Origin: Nanchangia anserum
GTDB taxonomy: Bacteria > Actinomycetota > Actinomycetes > Actinomycetales > Actinomycetaceae
Assembly (NCBI RefSeq): GCF_015240065.1
Contig: NZ_CP060506.1
Span: forward strand, 868,001-932,000
Direction: 5' to 3'
Length of the DNA stretch: 64,000 nt
Part shown: positions 16,625 through 23,344 of the stretch, piece after piece
Layout: each line of letters opens with the position of its first letter
How positions within the stretch are numbered: position 1 is the stretch's first letter
Made by a program: the position numbers and the translations under genes
The notes under the pieces: model-generated
Seen by the model: only the letters and a program-made list of their open reading frames with translations
What the model was told of the DNA's origin: nothing
Databases searched by the model: none

Positions 16625-17899
16625 ATGCCGACATTGACATTTGACGCGACGTGTTCCGCCGCTGAGCTCGACGAAATCGTCGAGGCGTCGCCGACGCCGG
16701 AGCCATTGCAGCTCGCGGCGTGGGCCGAAGTCAAGAGCGCCGACTGGGACGCCGAGCGCTTCGGGATCCGTCACGAGGGTCGCCTCGTCGGGACGTGCCA
16801 GGTGCTCTATCGCCGCCTCGGCGGGCGTCGCCTGGTGACGCTCGCCTACACCGCGCGCGGCCCGGTGTTCGCCCGCGATGACGTTCCCGCTCAGTGGTAC
16901 GTCGAGGTGTACCGTCACGTTCACCGTCTCGCCTTGCGTCGGCGCGCTCTCGTGCTCCACGTCGACCCGCCGGTATTGCGGGCGAAGGGGCGCGAGCTGT
17001 ACCGAGCGCTTCGCCAGCTCGGCTACGCCCATCAGGGCTTTTACACGGATATGCGCGAGATCCAGCCGCGCGCCTCGATGATGGTGACGTTGCCGAGCGA
17101 TCCCGACGCCATTGACGACGCGTTGCCGAAGAAGATGCGCCAATACACCCGGCGCGCACGCAAGCGCCCGTTTATCTATCGTGCGGTTGGACCAGACGAT
17201 CTCGACGACTTCATGCAGGTCATCACCGTCATGGCGCAGCGTCAAGAGATCGCCATGCGCGATGCCGGATACTTCGCCGAGATGATGCGGGCCTTTGAGG
17301 GACACTGCGAGGCGACGGTCGCCTATCTCGACATCGCCGCCGCAATCGAGGACGCCGACCGCTCGCTGGCCAAACAGCAGGTGCAGCGCGAGCGTTCGGC
17401 GAAGTCGCTGGAGGCGAAATGGACGAAGAAGGCCGAGGCTGGCCTCGCTGACCTGGATCGGGGGATCGAGAGGCTGCGCGAGCAGCGCGCCGAGCTGGCC
17501 AGCTGGGATGTCACCGAGCTGCCGCTGGCGTGCTCGCTCGTCCTCTACAGTGGCAACCGCGCCAGCTATCTCTATGGCGGCTCGACGAACGATCTGCGCA
17601 ACTACTACGCGCCCTACGCCCTCATCTCGACGCGCATGCAGCAGGCGGCTCGCCGCTTCGCCGGCGTCGAATCCGAGTTCGTCTTCGATTTCGGCGGTGT
17701 CTCGGGCGAGACCGATCCGGCCAAGGACCCCCGACACGGCGGGTTGTACACGTTTAAGGCGGCGTGGGGCTGCGACATGATCGAATACGTCGGCGAGTTC
17801 ACCCGACCCATCCTGCCGGGGATCGGTCACGCATTCACGCCGGCGACGCGCACCTACAAGCGCCTGCGCGAGTGGCGGCGACGCCGAGGCGCCTCGTAG
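16625..17899 (+). CDS. FemABX-family peptidoglycan cross-bridge aminoacyltransferase
   Basis: A 424-residue Fem-family protein. Two GNAT-like halves are interrupted by a charged coiled coil at about residues 240-293, the family hallmark. The C-terminal half carries ASYLYGGSTNDLRNYYAPYALISTRMQQA and FDFGGVSGETDPAKDPRHGGLYTFKAAWG, typical of MurN/FemX enzymes. These transfer an amino acid from tRNA to the peptidoglycan stem peptide at the cytoplasmic membrane. Which amino acid cannot be read from sequence. It follows der by 25 bases and ends in front of a strong hairpin. Confidence 0.88.
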   Translation: MPTLTFDATCSAAELDEIVEASPTPEPLQLAAWAEVKSADWDAERFGIRHEGRLVGTCQVLYRRLGGRRLVTLAYTARGPVFARDDVPAQWYVEVYRHVHRLALRRRALVLHVDPPVLRAKGRELYRALRQLGYAHQGFYTDMREIQPRASMMVTLPSDPDAIDDALPKKMRQYTRRARKRPFIYRAVGPDDLDDFMQVITVMAQRQEIAMRDAGYFAEMMRAFEGHCEATVAYLDIAAAIEDADRSLAKQQVQRERSAKSLEAKWTKKAEAGLADLDRGIERLREQRAELASWDVTELPLACSLVLYSGNRASYLYGGSTNDLRNYYAPYALISTRMQQAARRFAGVESEFVFDFGGVSGETDPAKDPRHGGLYTFKAAWGCDMIEYVGEFTRPILPGIGHAFTPATRTYKRLREWRRRRGAS

Positions 17900-19639: not shown

Positions 19640-19713
19640 GCGGATGTAGCTCAGTTGGTAGAGCATCACCTTGCCCAAGGTGAGGGTCGCGGGTTCGAGT
19701 CTCGTCATCCGCT
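19640..19713 (+). tRNA. tRNA-Gly (GCC) with an eight-base anticodon loop
   Basis: The cloverleaf is clear: acceptor GCGGATG/CATCCGC, D-arm GCTC/GAGC, anticodon stem TCACC/GGTGA, and T-arm with loop TTCGAGT. The anticodon loop reads TTGCCCAA, eight bases instead of TTGCCAA, so the gene is 74 rather than 73 bases. The extra C makes the decoding frame ambiguous; the identity comes from the whole body, which is a normal actinobacterial tRNA-Gly(GCC). CCA is not encoded. See findings. Confidence 0.88.
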
Positions 19714-19722
19714 CGAAGGGCA

Positions 19723-19750
19723 GGGTACCGGCTCGGCCGGTGCCCTTTTT
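19723..19750 (+). terminator. Intrinsic terminator inside the tRNA cluster
   Basis: GGGTACCGGC, loop TCG, GCCGGTGCCC (one G-T pair), then TTTTT at 19746-19750. It lies between tRNA-Gly and tRNA-Cys, so the Cys and Val tRNAs need read-through or their own promoter. Confidence 0.8.
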
Positions 19751-19755
19751 CCTTT

Positions 19756-19826
19756 GGTGGGTTGGCCGAGTGGCTAGGCAGCGGCCTGCAAAGCCGTATA
19801 CACCGGTTCGAATCCGGTACCCACCT
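19756..19826 (+). tRNA. tRNA-Cys (GCA)
   Basis: Acceptor GGTGGGT/ACCCACC, D-arm with GAGTGGCTAGGC, anticodon stem GCGGC/GCCGT with loop CTGCAAA (anticodon GCA), and T-arm CCGGTTCGAATCCGG. CCA is not encoded. tRNA-Val begins one base after its discriminator. Confidence 0.95.
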
Positions 19827-19827
19827 C

Positions 19828-19905
19828 GGGCGATTGGCGCAGTTTGGTTAGCGCGTTTCCTTGACACGGAAGAGGTCGCTGGTTCGAGTCCAGTATCGCC
19901 CACCA
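19828..19905 (+). tRNA. tRNA-Val (GAC)
   Basis: Acceptor GGGCGAT/ATCGCCC, anticodon loop TTGACAC (anticodon GAC), T-arm CTGGTTCGAGTCCAG, and an encoded CCA end at 19903-19905. Confidence 0.95.
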
Positions 19906-19952: not shown

Positions 19953-21104
19953 GTGACGATTGTCGATGAGCTGGCCCGCTACACCCACACGCGCGCTGCG
20001 GATTGGTTCGTTCTCGCGCGTGCTCGCGACGGGCTGCGTCTCGTCGGTGAGGCTGTGGCCGACGTCCGGGGGCCGGGCGACGTCGTCACGCAGGCCTTCA
20101 CCTGTGTCAGCGCCGTCACGCCGTTCATCGCTACGGGGCACACGCCGATCTATGGCGATATTGATCCCGACACGTATGCGCTCGATCCGGCCCGGTTGCC
20201 GCTGACGCCGCGCACGCGCGCCGTCGTTGCCCAACACACGTTCGGCATGATCGGCGAGGAAACTGCTGCGCTGGCCGAGCGTGCCCACCGCGCGGGTGCG
20301 ATCCTCATCGAGGACTCGGCGCACTGCGTCGCGCGACTGGGACGCCGCGACGGACAACCGGTGGCGGACGTGTCCGTGCACTCGTTCGGCGCCGAGAAAA
20401 TCCTGCCGACGAGCTTTGGCGGTGCCCTGTGGGTCAATCCCGACATCGAGGACCAGAATCTGCGCCATGCCATCATCGCGCGTGCGCGGCGGCTCCAGGC
20501 CCTCAGCGGTCGCGAGAAGGTGGCCGCGGCCAGCTACCGGTGGCAGCTGCGGGTGTACTCGCGCACGGGCAGCTGGGGGCAGCGTCTGCAAGATCGTGCC
20601 AGCCACGCCGGCCTGTTCTGGCCCCCGGTCACGGCGGGGGAGACCGCGGGGGAGTCGGCACCCGCGCGCGCGGCCTCGCGCTCGATGACGCGCGCGGTGT
20701 CGCGTGCGCTTGTCGAGCTACCGGCCAACCTCGCCCACCGTCGAGACGTCGCACGGCGTGCCCTGGAGGTGCTCGGGTCGAGCGTCGAAATCCCCGCGTT
20801 GGCTCGCTCAGGGCAGCCGCTCACGCGTCTGCCGCTGGCGATTCCGCACGAGAGCGGGCTCAGCGGTGAGGAGGCGTTTGCGTCGCTAAGCGCGGGCGGC
20901 ATACGCATCGGCAAGTGGTATCGCCCGAGCCTTTTCCCCGGGGTCGCCGATCCCCGGTACTACAACCTCGATCCCGATCTCACCGATCTTCCTGAGACCC
21001 GCCGCTTGACCGCGCAGGTGCTCAACCTCATGCTGCGCGGCAGCGCCGACGAGGTGTGCGCGGCGGCGCGTGCCGTGCGCGATCTCGTCGAGCGCGGGCG
21101 CTAG
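19953..21104 (+). CDS. DegT/DnrJ/EryC1/StrS-family PLP aminotransferase
   Basis: A 383-residue fold-type I PLP protein. ILIEDSAH at residues 117-124 holds the Asp that contacts the pyridine nitrogen, and SFGAEK ends in the likely Schiff-base Lys149, followed by TSFGGALWV. The family aminates keto-sugars for surface glycans or antibiotics; some members have other roles. GTG 19953 is chosen for the GAGGAGGA before it. It stands alone downstream of the tRNA cluster, with no other nucleotide-sugar gene near, and its stop overlaps the stop of the convergent ATP-grasp gene within CTAG. The substrate is unknown. Confidence 0.85.
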   Translation: MTIVDELARYTHTRAADWFVLARARDGLRLVGEAVADVRGPGDVVTQAFTCVSAVTPFIATGHTPIYGDIDPDTYALDPARLPLTPRTRAVVAQHTFGMIGEETAALAERAHRAGAILIEDSAHCVARLGRRDGQPVADVSVHSFGAEKILPTSFGGALWVNPDIEDQNLRHAIIARARRLQALSGREKVAAASYRWQLRVYSRTGSWGQRLQDRASHAGLFWPPVTAGETAGESAPARAASRSMTRAVSRALVELPANLAHRRDVARRALEVLGSSVEIPALARSGQPLTRLPLAIPHESGLSGEEAFASLSAGGIRIGKWYRPSLFPGVADPRYYNLDPDLTDLPETRRLTAQVLNLMLRGSADEVCAAARAVRDLVERGR

Positions 21105-22345
21105 GAGTTGAGCTCGGCCTCGGCGTAACGCAGGGTGTCGCGGCTGAGCCGGGCGTCCATCCGCAGGTTCGACACGACGCGCTGCGGTGAGAGGTCCTTG
21201 CTGTACCACAGGGTGTGCAGGCGCCGGTGCGAGGCCGCTTCGGTGACGAGGGGGCGCAGCTCGGGAGCACAGTGGCGCCTGACGACGGGGTAGGGGATGG
21301 TCATCCACAATCCTGCCTGCTCCGCCGCCTCGAATGGGCGCGGCGAGCCGTAGACCATGTCGTCGACGCAGTGGCGCACGAGATTGACGTTGCCCGCCAG
21401 CGTGTAGAAGGACGATGCCCCAAGCCGCAGATTCGCCTCGAGAACGTGGTAATCGCCGCTGTCGCGGTCGAGGAGAAAGTCGAAGTTGGCAAACCCGCGA
21501 TAGTTGTGCGCGTCGAGGAAGGATCGGATCTTCTCGGTGAGGGCGTCGTCGCGAAGGGCGACGATGGCGTTGTTATTGCCCACGCGCTGCGGATGCCGAT
21601 CCGTCACGGCCACTTGGCCGACGCAGATGGCGCGCAGCCGCCCGTCGGTGTCGGAATACGTGTTGGCCACGCGCATGACGGACTCGTTGCCCGAAAGATA
21701 GCGCTGGAGGATGAGCCCGTCGTCGTAGCCGCCGGCGCGAATGCGCGCAATCGTCGACACCAGCTCGTCCAGGGTCGAGATGAGATAGACCTTCTTGCGC
21801 CCGGCGAAATTCAGCCGCGGATAGATGTCGGTGTTCGTCGGCTTGAGGATCAGGGGGAAGGTCAGTCCGCGAGCATCGAGACGGGCCTGGTCGCAGACGT
21901 CGCCGGGACCGAGGACGTCCGTCGTCGGGTAGACGAGGCCGGCTCGATCACACGCCGCGTAGAAGTGATCCTTCTCGGCCAGGGTGCGCTGGGCCTCGGC
22001 GTCGATGCACGGCAGGGTGTAGAGCCGGGCGAGTTCGTCGTGATGTTCGGCGATGATCGTCGAATACATCTCGATGGTGGAAAAGAGAATCGGGCGGCGC
22101 GTGGGAAACTTCCCGGCAACCTCGCGCAGCGTGGCGATCACGGTATCGGGTTGATCGAAGTTGGGAACCTCGATGACGTCGAGGATCGCCGAATGCGCGG
22201 TCTCGCCGAGGCGCGCCCGCCCAAGCGCGAGCGAGCGAACGCCGTAGGCCATGTGCAGGCTGCGTGCGATCGTGTATGCGCCTAGCCCTGTCCCGAGGAT
22301 GACGGGAACAAAGTCGTCATTTCCGTACCCATCCGCGATAGCCAT
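21101..22345 (-). CDS. ATP-grasp carboxylate-amine ligase-like protein
   Basis: A 414-residue ATP-grasp protein. Visible parts are an N-terminal pre-ATP-grasp domain (VPVILGTGLGAYTIARSLH), TFPLILKPTN (ATP-binding Lys), LILQRYLSGNESVMRV and the metal-binding segment FLLDRDSGDYHVLEANLRLGASSF. The layout resembles carboxylate-amine ligases such as D-aspartate ligase of peptidoglycan cross-bridges. That function here is inference. ATG 22345 is chosen because GGAGG lies six bases upstream; an ATG two codons earlier is too close. It lies 42 bases downstream of the acyltransferase on the same strand. Confidence 0.75.
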   Translation of the reverse strand: MAIADGYGNDDFVPVILGTGLGAYTIARSLHMAYGVRSLALGRARLGETAHSAILDVIEVPNFDQPDTVIATLREVAGKFPTRRPILFSTIEMYSTIIAEHHDELARLYTLPCIDAEAQRTLAEKDHFYAACDRAGLVYPTTDVLGPGDVCDQARLDARGLTFPLILKPTNTDIYPRLNFAGRKKVYLISTLDELVSTIARIRAGGYDDGLILQRYLSGNESVMRVANTYSDTDGRLRAICVGQVAVTDRHPQRVGNNNAIVALRDDALTEKIRSFLDAHNYRGFANFDFLLDRDSGDYHVLEANLRLGASSFYTLAGNVNLVRHCVDDMVYGSPRPFEAAEQAGLWMTIPYPVVRRHCAPELRPLVTEAASHRRLHTLWYSKDLSPQRVVSNLRMDARLSRDTLRYAEAELNS

Positions 22346-22387
22346 CCTCATCCTCCCGCTTCTCGCCAGTGCACTAGCTGCATCGTA

Positions 22388-23344
22388 TCAGCGGCGCTTG
22401 GCACCACCACGGTGAGGCCGCGACAGCGTCCACGACAGCGGTCGGTACCCACGTGCCGCCGTCAGGGCGAGCGAGAGCGCGACGGTTGCCACGCAGACGA
22501 GCACGCCGATTCCGGGGACCGGGCGCAGGGTGACGCCGAGGAATAACCCGATCGGCCAGTGGCACACGTAGAGGGCCAACGAGCCGCGGCCGAGCCACGC
22601 GCACGCCCTCGCCGCGCGGGTGTGCGCGGGCAGCATCATCGCCCACGCCAACAGCAGGGCAATGACGGCGAAGCACCGGATGAGCCGCACCCAGTCGGGA
22701 CCGATGCCCCAGATGGTGGCGGTCGCCGAGACCGCGAGCGCGCCTGCCAGACTCAGCCACGCCAGGGCAGCGTTGCTCGGAGCCCGAGAGGCGAGTGCGT
22801 GGACGCGTCCGGCCAGGGCCATGCCGCAGAAGAAGAAGGCCGCATAGCCGAGGTGCTCATCCCAGCCGGTGACGAGCGGTAGGGCCGATAGTGGCAGCGA
22901 GACGAGGGCGAGACACCACGCGGGCACCCACCGGCTGAGGCAGGCGAGGGCGCAGAAGAGGAAGAGGAATTCGAGGAACCACAGGTAGGACACGTCGGTG
23001 AGGACGTCGGCGCGCGCCAGGGCAGCGGGCCCGCCGGCACGTAGTCGGTTGATGACGTGCCAGATGACGAGGGGCCACAGGATCGTGTCGCACTTGGCGA
23101 GGAGGAAGCGCGCGGGGCCACGGCGTAGCGAGCGGGGGATGAGCAGTCCCGAGGCGAAGAACAGCGCGGGCAGGTGGAACGACTTCAGGGCGGCGTTTAG
23201 GGTCACCTCGATCTCGGACGGTGGCCGGCCGGTGTAGGCGGCGAGGAAAAACCGCAGGTGGATGAGGACGACGGCCCCGATCGTGATTCCCTTGATGGCG
23301 TCGAGCCAGATGAGCCGGCCCGTCGCGCCCTGCCGCGCATTCAT
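22388..23344 (-). CDS. Membrane acyltransferase (acyltransferase 3 family)
   Basis: A 318-residue, strongly hydrophobic protein with about 10 transmembrane helices. The N-terminal signature RLIWLDAIKGITIGAVVLIH, with its helix-1 His, and SFHLPALFFASGLLI match acyltransferase-3 (OafA/NodX-like) proteins, which O-acetylate surface sugars or peptidoglycan. ATG 23344 is favoured by a TACGAT box seven bases upstream; ATG 23353 lies inside that box. It precedes the ATP-grasp gene and is divergent from the PTS operon. The acceptor is unknown. Confidence 0.82.
   Translation of the reverse strand: MNARQGATGRLIWLDAIKGITIGAVVLIHLRFFLAAYTGRPPSEIEVTLNAALKSFHLPALFFASGLLIPRSLRRGPARFLLAKCDTILWPLVIWHVINRLRAGGPAALARADVLTDVSYLWFLEFLFLFCALACLSRWVPAWCLALVSLPLSALPLVTGWDEHLGYAAFFFCGMALAGRVHALASRAPSNAALAWLSLAGALAVSATATIWGIGPDWVRLIRCFAVIALLLAWAMMLPAHTRAARACAWLGRGSLALYVCHWPIGLFLGVTLRPVPGIGVLVCVATVALSLALTAARGYRPLSWTLSRPHRGGAKRR

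Follow-up and report, generated by a model that had tools for sequence, protein, structure and literature searches.

Organisation of the locus

A locus beside a tRNA cluster of Nanchangia anserum raises the question of which of its unusual enzymes act together, and on which component of the cell envelope. In the window (the whole stretch of 64,000 nucleotides that was analysed), the tRNAs (19640-19905) are followed by a gene on the forward strand (degT; 19953..21104, GTG start) encoding a PLP enzyme of the DegT/DnrJ/EryC1/StrS fold (383 aa; PF01041, E = 3.8e-20). An ATP-grasp carboxylate-amine ligase gene lies on the reverse strand (21101..22345; 414 aa, with an alternative ATG at 22351), and a membrane acyltransferase gene (22388..23344, reverse strand; PF01757, E = 1.9e-22) precedes it in the same direction. 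These three genes lie where the first-pass annotation had placed them, and the ORF coordinates bear out the overlapping stops of the convergent degT and ligase genes (4 nt). The tRNA-Gly at 19640-19714 reads with an apparent extra base in its anticodon loop. That degT is a real gene is clear from its full-length orthologues (approximately 40% identity), which occur in a dozen further genomes of this family and in more of the order. Approximately 2 kb upstream of degT, beyond the interval considered in that annotation (19953-23344), a femX-like gene (16625..17899, forward strand) encodes a FemAB/FemX-type protein of 424 aa, predicted from its family to be an aminoacyl-tRNA-dependent peptidyltransferase.

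Linkage of DegT, Fem and ATP-grasp genes

A set of DegT, Fem and ATP-grasp genes recurs across Actinomycetota. All three genes occurred within 8 kb in 59 of the 80 named DegT loci, a further eight loci held DegT with ATP-grasp and four held DegT with Fem, and most DegT loci outside the named set also had the three genes together. Same-strand clusters of the trio occurred in several gene orders. Six ORFs, all free of internal stops, were fusions: two joined all three domains (DegT-ATPgrasp-Fem in L102, 1252 aa; Fem-DegT-ATPgrasp in L112, 1204 aa), and four joined DegT to ATP-grasp (L110, L124, L144 and L155). The genera carrying the module include Cellulosimicrobium, Actinotalea, Demequina, Bifidobacterium and Olsenella.

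The association also held at the genome level. Among 297 genomes of the order, all nine DegT-positive genomes encoded the ATP-grasp ligase, and FemAB was detected in eight of them by Pfam and in the ninth by a custom HMM. DegT was associated with both partners in this survey (Fisher p = 2e-5), and ATP-grasp and Fem alone were not associated with each other (p = 0.41). Fem and ATP-grasp, some at separate loci, were present in each of another 12 DegT-positive genomes of the family; overall, the three genes occurred in all 20 of the other DegT-positive Actinomycetota genomes checked. The three proteins also co-diverged (Mantel r 0.59-0.76). DegT, ATP-grasp and Fem are therefore members of one functional module. 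Fem and ATP-grasp occurred without DegT in 55 sampled genomes. Most Demequina species, for example, have these two but no DegT, which is present in D. aurantiaca, D. oxidasica, D. sediminicola and D. iriomotensis. The three Saccharibacteria genomes, in which DegT occurred without ATP-grasp and was joined by Fem in two, count against this reading of the module.

Properties of the three proteins

The DegT protein falls within its superfamily by sequence (PF01041, 72.9 bits; cut-off 19.8), fold and active-site Lys, Asp and His. Its AF2 model (pLDDT 95.9) matched WbpE and DesI in Foldseek (TM 0.64-0.70), and the Schiff-base lysine K149, D121 and H124 all aligned to DesI. Eleven residues were invariant in 41 orthologues (E120, D121, A123, H124, S141, H143, S144, F145, G146, E148 and K149). 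The closest sequence and fold matches were sugar aminotransferases (WbpE, DesI and perosamine synthase), and the protein shares the fold and the lysine, Asp and His with these enzymes and ArnB. However, its C-terminal half was barely recognisable by sequence, and in alignments TxFGGA(I/V)W in this subfamily replaced the GEGG that usually follows the lysine in the sugar aminotransferases. Against models of named sugar aminotransferases (WecE, ArnB, DesI and PseC types), the best score was 48.8 bits, below every cut-off (375-650). Unlike the sugar enzymes, proteins of this type are fused or linked to peptide ligases rather than to sugar genes, and they form a subfamily of their own that goes with Fem and ATP-grasp ligases. 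A search of a plasmid collection for DegT yielded no match.

The ligase had no Pfam match of its own, and its fold (AF2 pLDDT 92.6) and homologues identified it as an ATP-grasp protein. It aligned over its full length with a ligase of Latilactobacillus curvatus (27% identity, E = 5e-51; profile E = 8e-79), whose gene adjoins an amino-acid racemase gene in the order aspS-racemase-ligase. We take this to be a lactic-acid-bacterial counterpart of Aslfm/Racfm, the D-aspartate ligase and aspartate racemase of Enterococcus faecium, which make an A4-type bridge. All 19 residues invariant across 39 relatives were present. With its fold, conserved active site and full-length homology to a racemase-linked ligase, the protein has the features of an Aslfm-type enzyme and is predicted to be a bridge ligase of the D-Asp/D-Glu type. 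A second ATP-grasp gene of the same genome was rejected as a functional substitute, having lost most catalytic residues. When genome contigs were searched with the single ligase sequence, no match was confirmed; the DegT alignment succeeded as a query for these contigs where the single sequence did not.

The Fem protein, the sole FemAB protein found in a search of the genome, matched PF02388 over residues 12-398 (E = 1.3e-49), which covers the full-length FemAB domain, and contains a coiled-coil hairpin. In these respects it resembles FemX, FemA and MurM. It differs in falling short of the NCBIfam FemX model (84 bits; cut-off 500) and in that a PLP enzyme and a D-acid ligase regularly accompany it.

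A proposed pathway for interpeptide bridge synthesis

The trio very probably builds short peptide bridges that cross-link the cell wall. We estimate a probability of approximately 0.7 that the three genes form a module for the peptidoglycan interpeptide bridge, with DegT acting in that pathway. The assignment to peptidoglycan is strongly supported. Recurrent neighbours of the module were the lipid II flippase MurJ (14 loci), NlpC/P60 proteins (11 loci) and a racemase of the Asp/Glu family (11 loci), a representative of which exceeded the asp_race cut-off; the remaining recurrent annotated neighbours of DegT loci were housekeeping genes. Whereas the first-pass annotation had seen no evident substrate, the interpeptide bridge is evident as such from Fem, MurJ, the racemase and the homology to D-Asp ligases.

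The product is most likely a bridge capped with a D-acid, as follows from the homology of the ligase to the racemase-linked Lactobacillaceae ligase, in an Aslfm-like arrangement, and from the MurJ and racemase neighbours. Reports of L-Asp in place of D-Asp in some Actinotalea speak against this. The system resembles Aslfm/Racfm in its full-length ligase homology (via Latilactobacillus curvatus) and in the racemase near the ligase in those 11 loci. It differs in that Fem and DegT are partners of the ligase, so that the D-acid would probably be joined to a Fem-added residue and not directly to the stem lysine. In addition, a search of the Nanchangia anserum genome for Asp/Glu racemases found MurI and no dedicated aspartate racemase. 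D-Glu is therefore likelier than D-Asp as the capping acid in this organism, and we do not claim D-Asp specificity for its ligase.

The module would act on a lipid-linked or UDP-linked peptidoglycan precursor, and we infer both the order of the steps and the DegT reaction as follows. Fem would transfer an L-amino acid from aminoacyl-tRNA onto the side-chain amine of the diamino acid in the stem peptide. DegT might then work on the added residue, whose free alpha-amine can form an aldimine with PLP, and the alpha carbon would be converted from L to D, for example from L-Ser to D-Ser. Finally, the ATP-grasp ligase would cap this residue with a D-dicarboxylic acid (D-Glu or D-Asp) via the side-chain carboxyl.

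Inversion of the newest bridge residue, still bound to the wall precursor, is a tentative proposal, about half as probable as the module itself, drawn from genomic context and one strain-matched wall. It is favoured because Actinotalea ferrariae CF5-4, with a wall of L-Orn-D-Ser-D-Asp (PMC8878594), is the same strain that carries the trio (L090), and because of the 55 genomes with Fem and ATP-grasp that do without DegT. The correlation of D-Ser with DegT comprises this strain-matched case together with background data on Cellulosimicrobium. Against inversion stand the nearest solved relatives of DegT, which are sugar aminotransferases, the DegT family itself, in which we know of no racemase or epimerase, and two reports of L-configured bridges (PMC6113628): L-Lys-L-Lys-D-Glu in Varibaculum cambriense, which has DegT with Fem (L092) and ATP-grasp, and Gly-L-Ser-D-Asp in Dermacoccaceae, where Flexivirga has DegT. 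Neither bridge fits an obligatory D residue, unless the stereochemical assignment is wrong or species-specific.

Alternative explanations

DegT could instead belong to the same bridge module as a PLP racemase or transaminase of free amino acids that provides D-Ser, or some other D-amino acid, for ligation. The linkage evidence and the D-Ser in Actinotalea walls (PMC8878594) suit this view, and with MurI alone in the present genome a role in D-Asp supply is formally possible. We nevertheless consider it unlikely. Fem transferases use aminoacyl-tRNA, normally charged with L-amino acids, so that free D-Ser would require another ligase; DegT accompanies Fem without the ATP-grasp ligase in two of three Saccharibacteria genomes; and the racemase in 11 module loci already covers D-Asp supply there, which disfavours DegT as its source. 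Somewhat less probable still is amino transfer, in which DegT would make or modify a non-standard bridge amino acid and epimerise nothing. The fold and the intact K149, D121 and H124 agree with such an activity, and Fic25 of Streptomyces ficellus (8gyh, 8gyj), a Foldseek match, shows that sugars are not the only substrates of the fold, as its 8gyj structure holds PLP in an adduct with an amino-acid-like substrate. Yet readable wall reports on DegT-positive taxa list Ser, Lys, Gly, D-Asp and D-Glu and no unusual amino acid, and neither a keto-acid nor an oxidoreductase partner was found among the recurrent annotated neighbours. Fic25 belongs to secondary metabolism, and we know of no Fem or D-acid ligase partner for it.

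It is improbable that DegT serves a wall glycan as an ordinary nucleotide-sugar aminotransferase and lies near bridge ligases by chance. Its best matches in sequence and fold are of this kind, but the ligase fusions, the linkage in 59 of 80 loci, the genome-wide co-occurrence and scores of at most 49 bits against the sugar models argue otherwise. No sugar dehydrogenase, dehydratase or glycosyltransferase was found among the recurrent annotated neighbours of the pair, and an amino sugar, one of the products put forward in the first-pass annotation, is therefore unlikely. That annotation had coupled DegT and the ligase to the membrane acyltransferase, as enzymes that could together equip the cell envelope with an unusual amino acid or amino sugar. 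The coupling of DegT to ATP-grasp and the link to the envelope were upheld, and the pair does co-occur in relatives, with the Fem aminoacyltransferase as its real third partner. The acyltransferase gene lies approximately 40 nt upstream of the ligase gene and shares its strand, so the two could be co-transcribed in this genome. However, no homologue adjoined the pair in any other locus compared, including that of the sister species G001, which rules out the acyltransferase as a module member and makes the original grouping very improbable.

Implications for wall diversity in Actinomycetota

Peptidoglycan bridge types have been used in actinobacterial taxonomy for half a century, and to our knowledge no enzymes have been assigned to bridges in which a residue from Fem is combined with a D-acid, in particular to those containing D-Ser. 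The ligase and Fem are of kinds already known; the proposed DegT step in bridge synthesis is previously undescribed. A literature search that took in few of the IJSEM papers on wall stereochemistry returned no paper linking DegT with Fem and ATP-grasp. The conserved, and even fused, DegT-Fem-ATPgrasp module thus provides three candidate genes for such mixed bridges. If the proposed inversion is correct, it would explain how D-serine enters bridges although Fem normally delivers L-amino acids, and the module would add a DegT enzyme whose substrate is a wall peptide and not a sugar. The presence of the module in cultivable genera makes this bridge step accessible to genetics and chiral wall analysis.

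Composition of the gene module

The window (G000:C1:868001-932000 of the single-contig, 1.9 Mb genome) encodes a DegT-family PLP enzyme (19953-21104, plus strand) and an ATP-grasp ligase (21101-22345, minus strand), whose convergent stops overlap by 4 nt. The first-pass annotation had grouped this pair with an acyltransferase-3 membrane protein; the three ORFs and the overlap were confirmed. In the neighbourhoods of DegT orthologues from relatives, however, the ligase recurred together with a FemAB-family protein, and the acyltransferase was not found. Thus, ACYLTRANSFERASE leaves the gene set and is replaced by the Fem protein, while the DegT-ligase pair stands. The acyltransferase-3 protein upstream of the ligase (22388-23344, minus strand) was particular to N. 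anserum among the loci examined. The FemAB-family protein (16625-17899, plus strand; PF02388, E = 1.3e-49), the sole one found by a search of the genome, is encoded 2 kb upstream of degT, with an MFS transporter gene and three tRNAs between them; in the sister species (G001) the genes run degT, ligase, fem, and this insertion is absent.

A tRNA-Gly copy at 19640-19714 (plus strand) has one extra C in its anticodon loop (8-nt loop, GCCC), whereas a normal GCC anticodon is seen in the genome's other tRNA-Gly copy (G000:C1:971525-971600) and in those of relatives. Three readings are offered: an error of assembly, a tRNA of the frameshift-suppressor type, or one released from translation near femX.

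Distribution, linkage and co-occurrence

Full-length orthologues of the DegT subfamily (ca. 40% identity) occurred in a minority of relatives, with strong matches in 12 others among 200 family genomes and profile-search matches in eight genomes besides our own from other families of the order (n = 297) and in eight others among 396 more distant phylum members. The three genes lay together in most DegT loci of these order- and phylum-level genomes. Scanning 84,980 species genomes, with exact short patterns required, yielded 141 DegT loci. The best 80 of these 141, which were named and analysed, belonged to Cellulomonas, Cellulosimicrobium, Actinotalea, Luteimicrobium, Sanguibacter, Demequina, Flexivirga, Timonella, Varibaculum, Arcanobacterium, Bifidobacterium, Olsenella and other Atopobiaceae, Collinsella and Candidatus Saccharibacteria. 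Within 8 kb, DegT was accompanied by both partners at 59 of these 80 loci, by ATP-grasp without Fem at eight and by Fem without ATP-grasp at four; it stood alone at nine, mostly in Saccharibacteria. Moreover, two genomes encode the trio as one protein of 1200-1250 aa with differing domain orders (L102, DegT-ATPgrasp-Fem; L112, Fem-DegT-ATPgrasp), four further genomes carry DegT-ATPgrasp fusions, and none of these six genes contained internal stops. The trio is therefore conserved across the phylum, at times as a single protein.

In Saccharibacteria-type genomes (L121, L126, L135, L141, L143, L146, L151, L157 and L161), DegT has tsaD on one side and a class I aminoacyl-tRNA synthetase gene on the other, and Fem genes flank it on either side in some of them; the ligase was absent from the three such genomes tested. 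In genome G148, a stretch of 12 kb (L045:7584-19157) encodes DegT together with a pair of ATP-grasp ligases and a pair of Fem proteins, which perhaps serve a longer or mixed bridge.

The tie among the three proteins goes beyond synteny. Among the 297 genomes of the order, ATP-grasp was found in 148, FemAB by Pfam in 119 and DegT in nine, eight of which held both partners (Fisher p = 2e-5); in the ninth, a purpose-built HMM found the Fem protein that Pfam had missed. ATP-grasp and Fem on their own were unassociated in this sample (p = 0.41). All 12 further DegT-positive family genomes held both partners, unlinked cases included; the Fem of G148, missed by the genome-wide Pfam search, was recovered by a separate search. 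Protein distances of the three also correlated (Mantel r 0.59-0.76). Since 55 genomes combine ATP-grasp and Fem without DegT, DegT is an optional extra step and no general need of such bridges.

A probable role in peptidoglycan bridge synthesis

The recurrent neighbours of DegT included the lipid II flippase MurJ (14 loci), NlpC/P60 wall hydrolases (11 loci) and an Asp/Glu-family racemase (11 loci), whose Actinotalea representative exceeded the aspartate-racemase cut-off. The window ligase keeps 19/19 family-invariant residues, has a predicted ATP-grasp fold and shows full-length homology to a Lactobacillaceae carboxylate-amine ligase from an aspS-racemase-ligase cluster, the same type of arrangement as that of the D-aspartate ligase Aslfm with Racfm. 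D-Asp and D-Glu cross-links require ATP-grasp ligases, and glycine and L-residues require Fem ligases (PMC2922099). As MurI is its single Asp/Glu racemase, D-Glu is the likeliest cap in N. anserum. Taken together, we consider the trio to be one peptidoglycan-bridge module, with DegT acting in that pathway, at a probability of about 0.72; the bridge role taken alone is somewhat more probable.

A second ATP-grasp paralogue of N. anserum (G000:C1:979325-980545; L047:8926-10248) has an intact ORF adjoining a glycogen-debranching-type gene. Because most of the 19 invariant residues are lost, it is probably a non-catalytic relic. A comparably diverged copy occurs in this context in the sister species as well.

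Possible function of the DegT-fold enzyme

The enzyme has the DegT fold, with WbpE, DesI and Fic25 among the fold matches, and its catalytic residues (Lys149, Asp121 and His124) do not vary within the subfamily. No named sugar-aminotransferase model reached its cut-off on the protein, and the survey of recurrent neighbours of DegT loci found no sugar genes, which counts against the amino-sugar chemistry suggested in the first-pass annotation. DegT accompanies Fem and a D-acid ligase yet is dispensable for that combination; it would thus change the residue that Fem added, conceivably by inverting it from L to D. The one strain-matched wall, L-Orn-D-Ser-D-Asp in Actinotalea ferrariae CF5-4 (PMC8878594), which holds the trio (L090), supports a D residue. 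DegT is also present in Varibaculum and Flexivirga, against this reading given the L-configured bridge residues reported for Varibaculum cambriense (L-Lys-L-Lys-D-Glu) and Dermacoccaceae (Gly-L-Ser-D-Asp) (PMC6113628). For Sanguibacter, Ser is given without configuration (PMC3035225). Epimerisation by DegT is therefore a tentative proposal, less likely than not. Cellulomonas flavigena (L-Orn-D-Asp; PMC3035266), Pengzhenrongella (L-Orn-D-Glu; PMC11165906) and Jonesia (L-Lys-L-Ser-D-Glu; PMC3035236) were not among the best 80 of 141 DegT matches, which is weak evidence for a D residue because of this limit and of the exact short patterns required.

Bridge synthesis by Fem proteins and by Aslfm-type ligases is already known; a third component that is a DegT-fold PLP enzyme, conserved and in some genomes even fused, was not found in the literature searched. 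The choice of the DegT-ligase pair as the best candidate for undescribed chemistry proved a good intuition.
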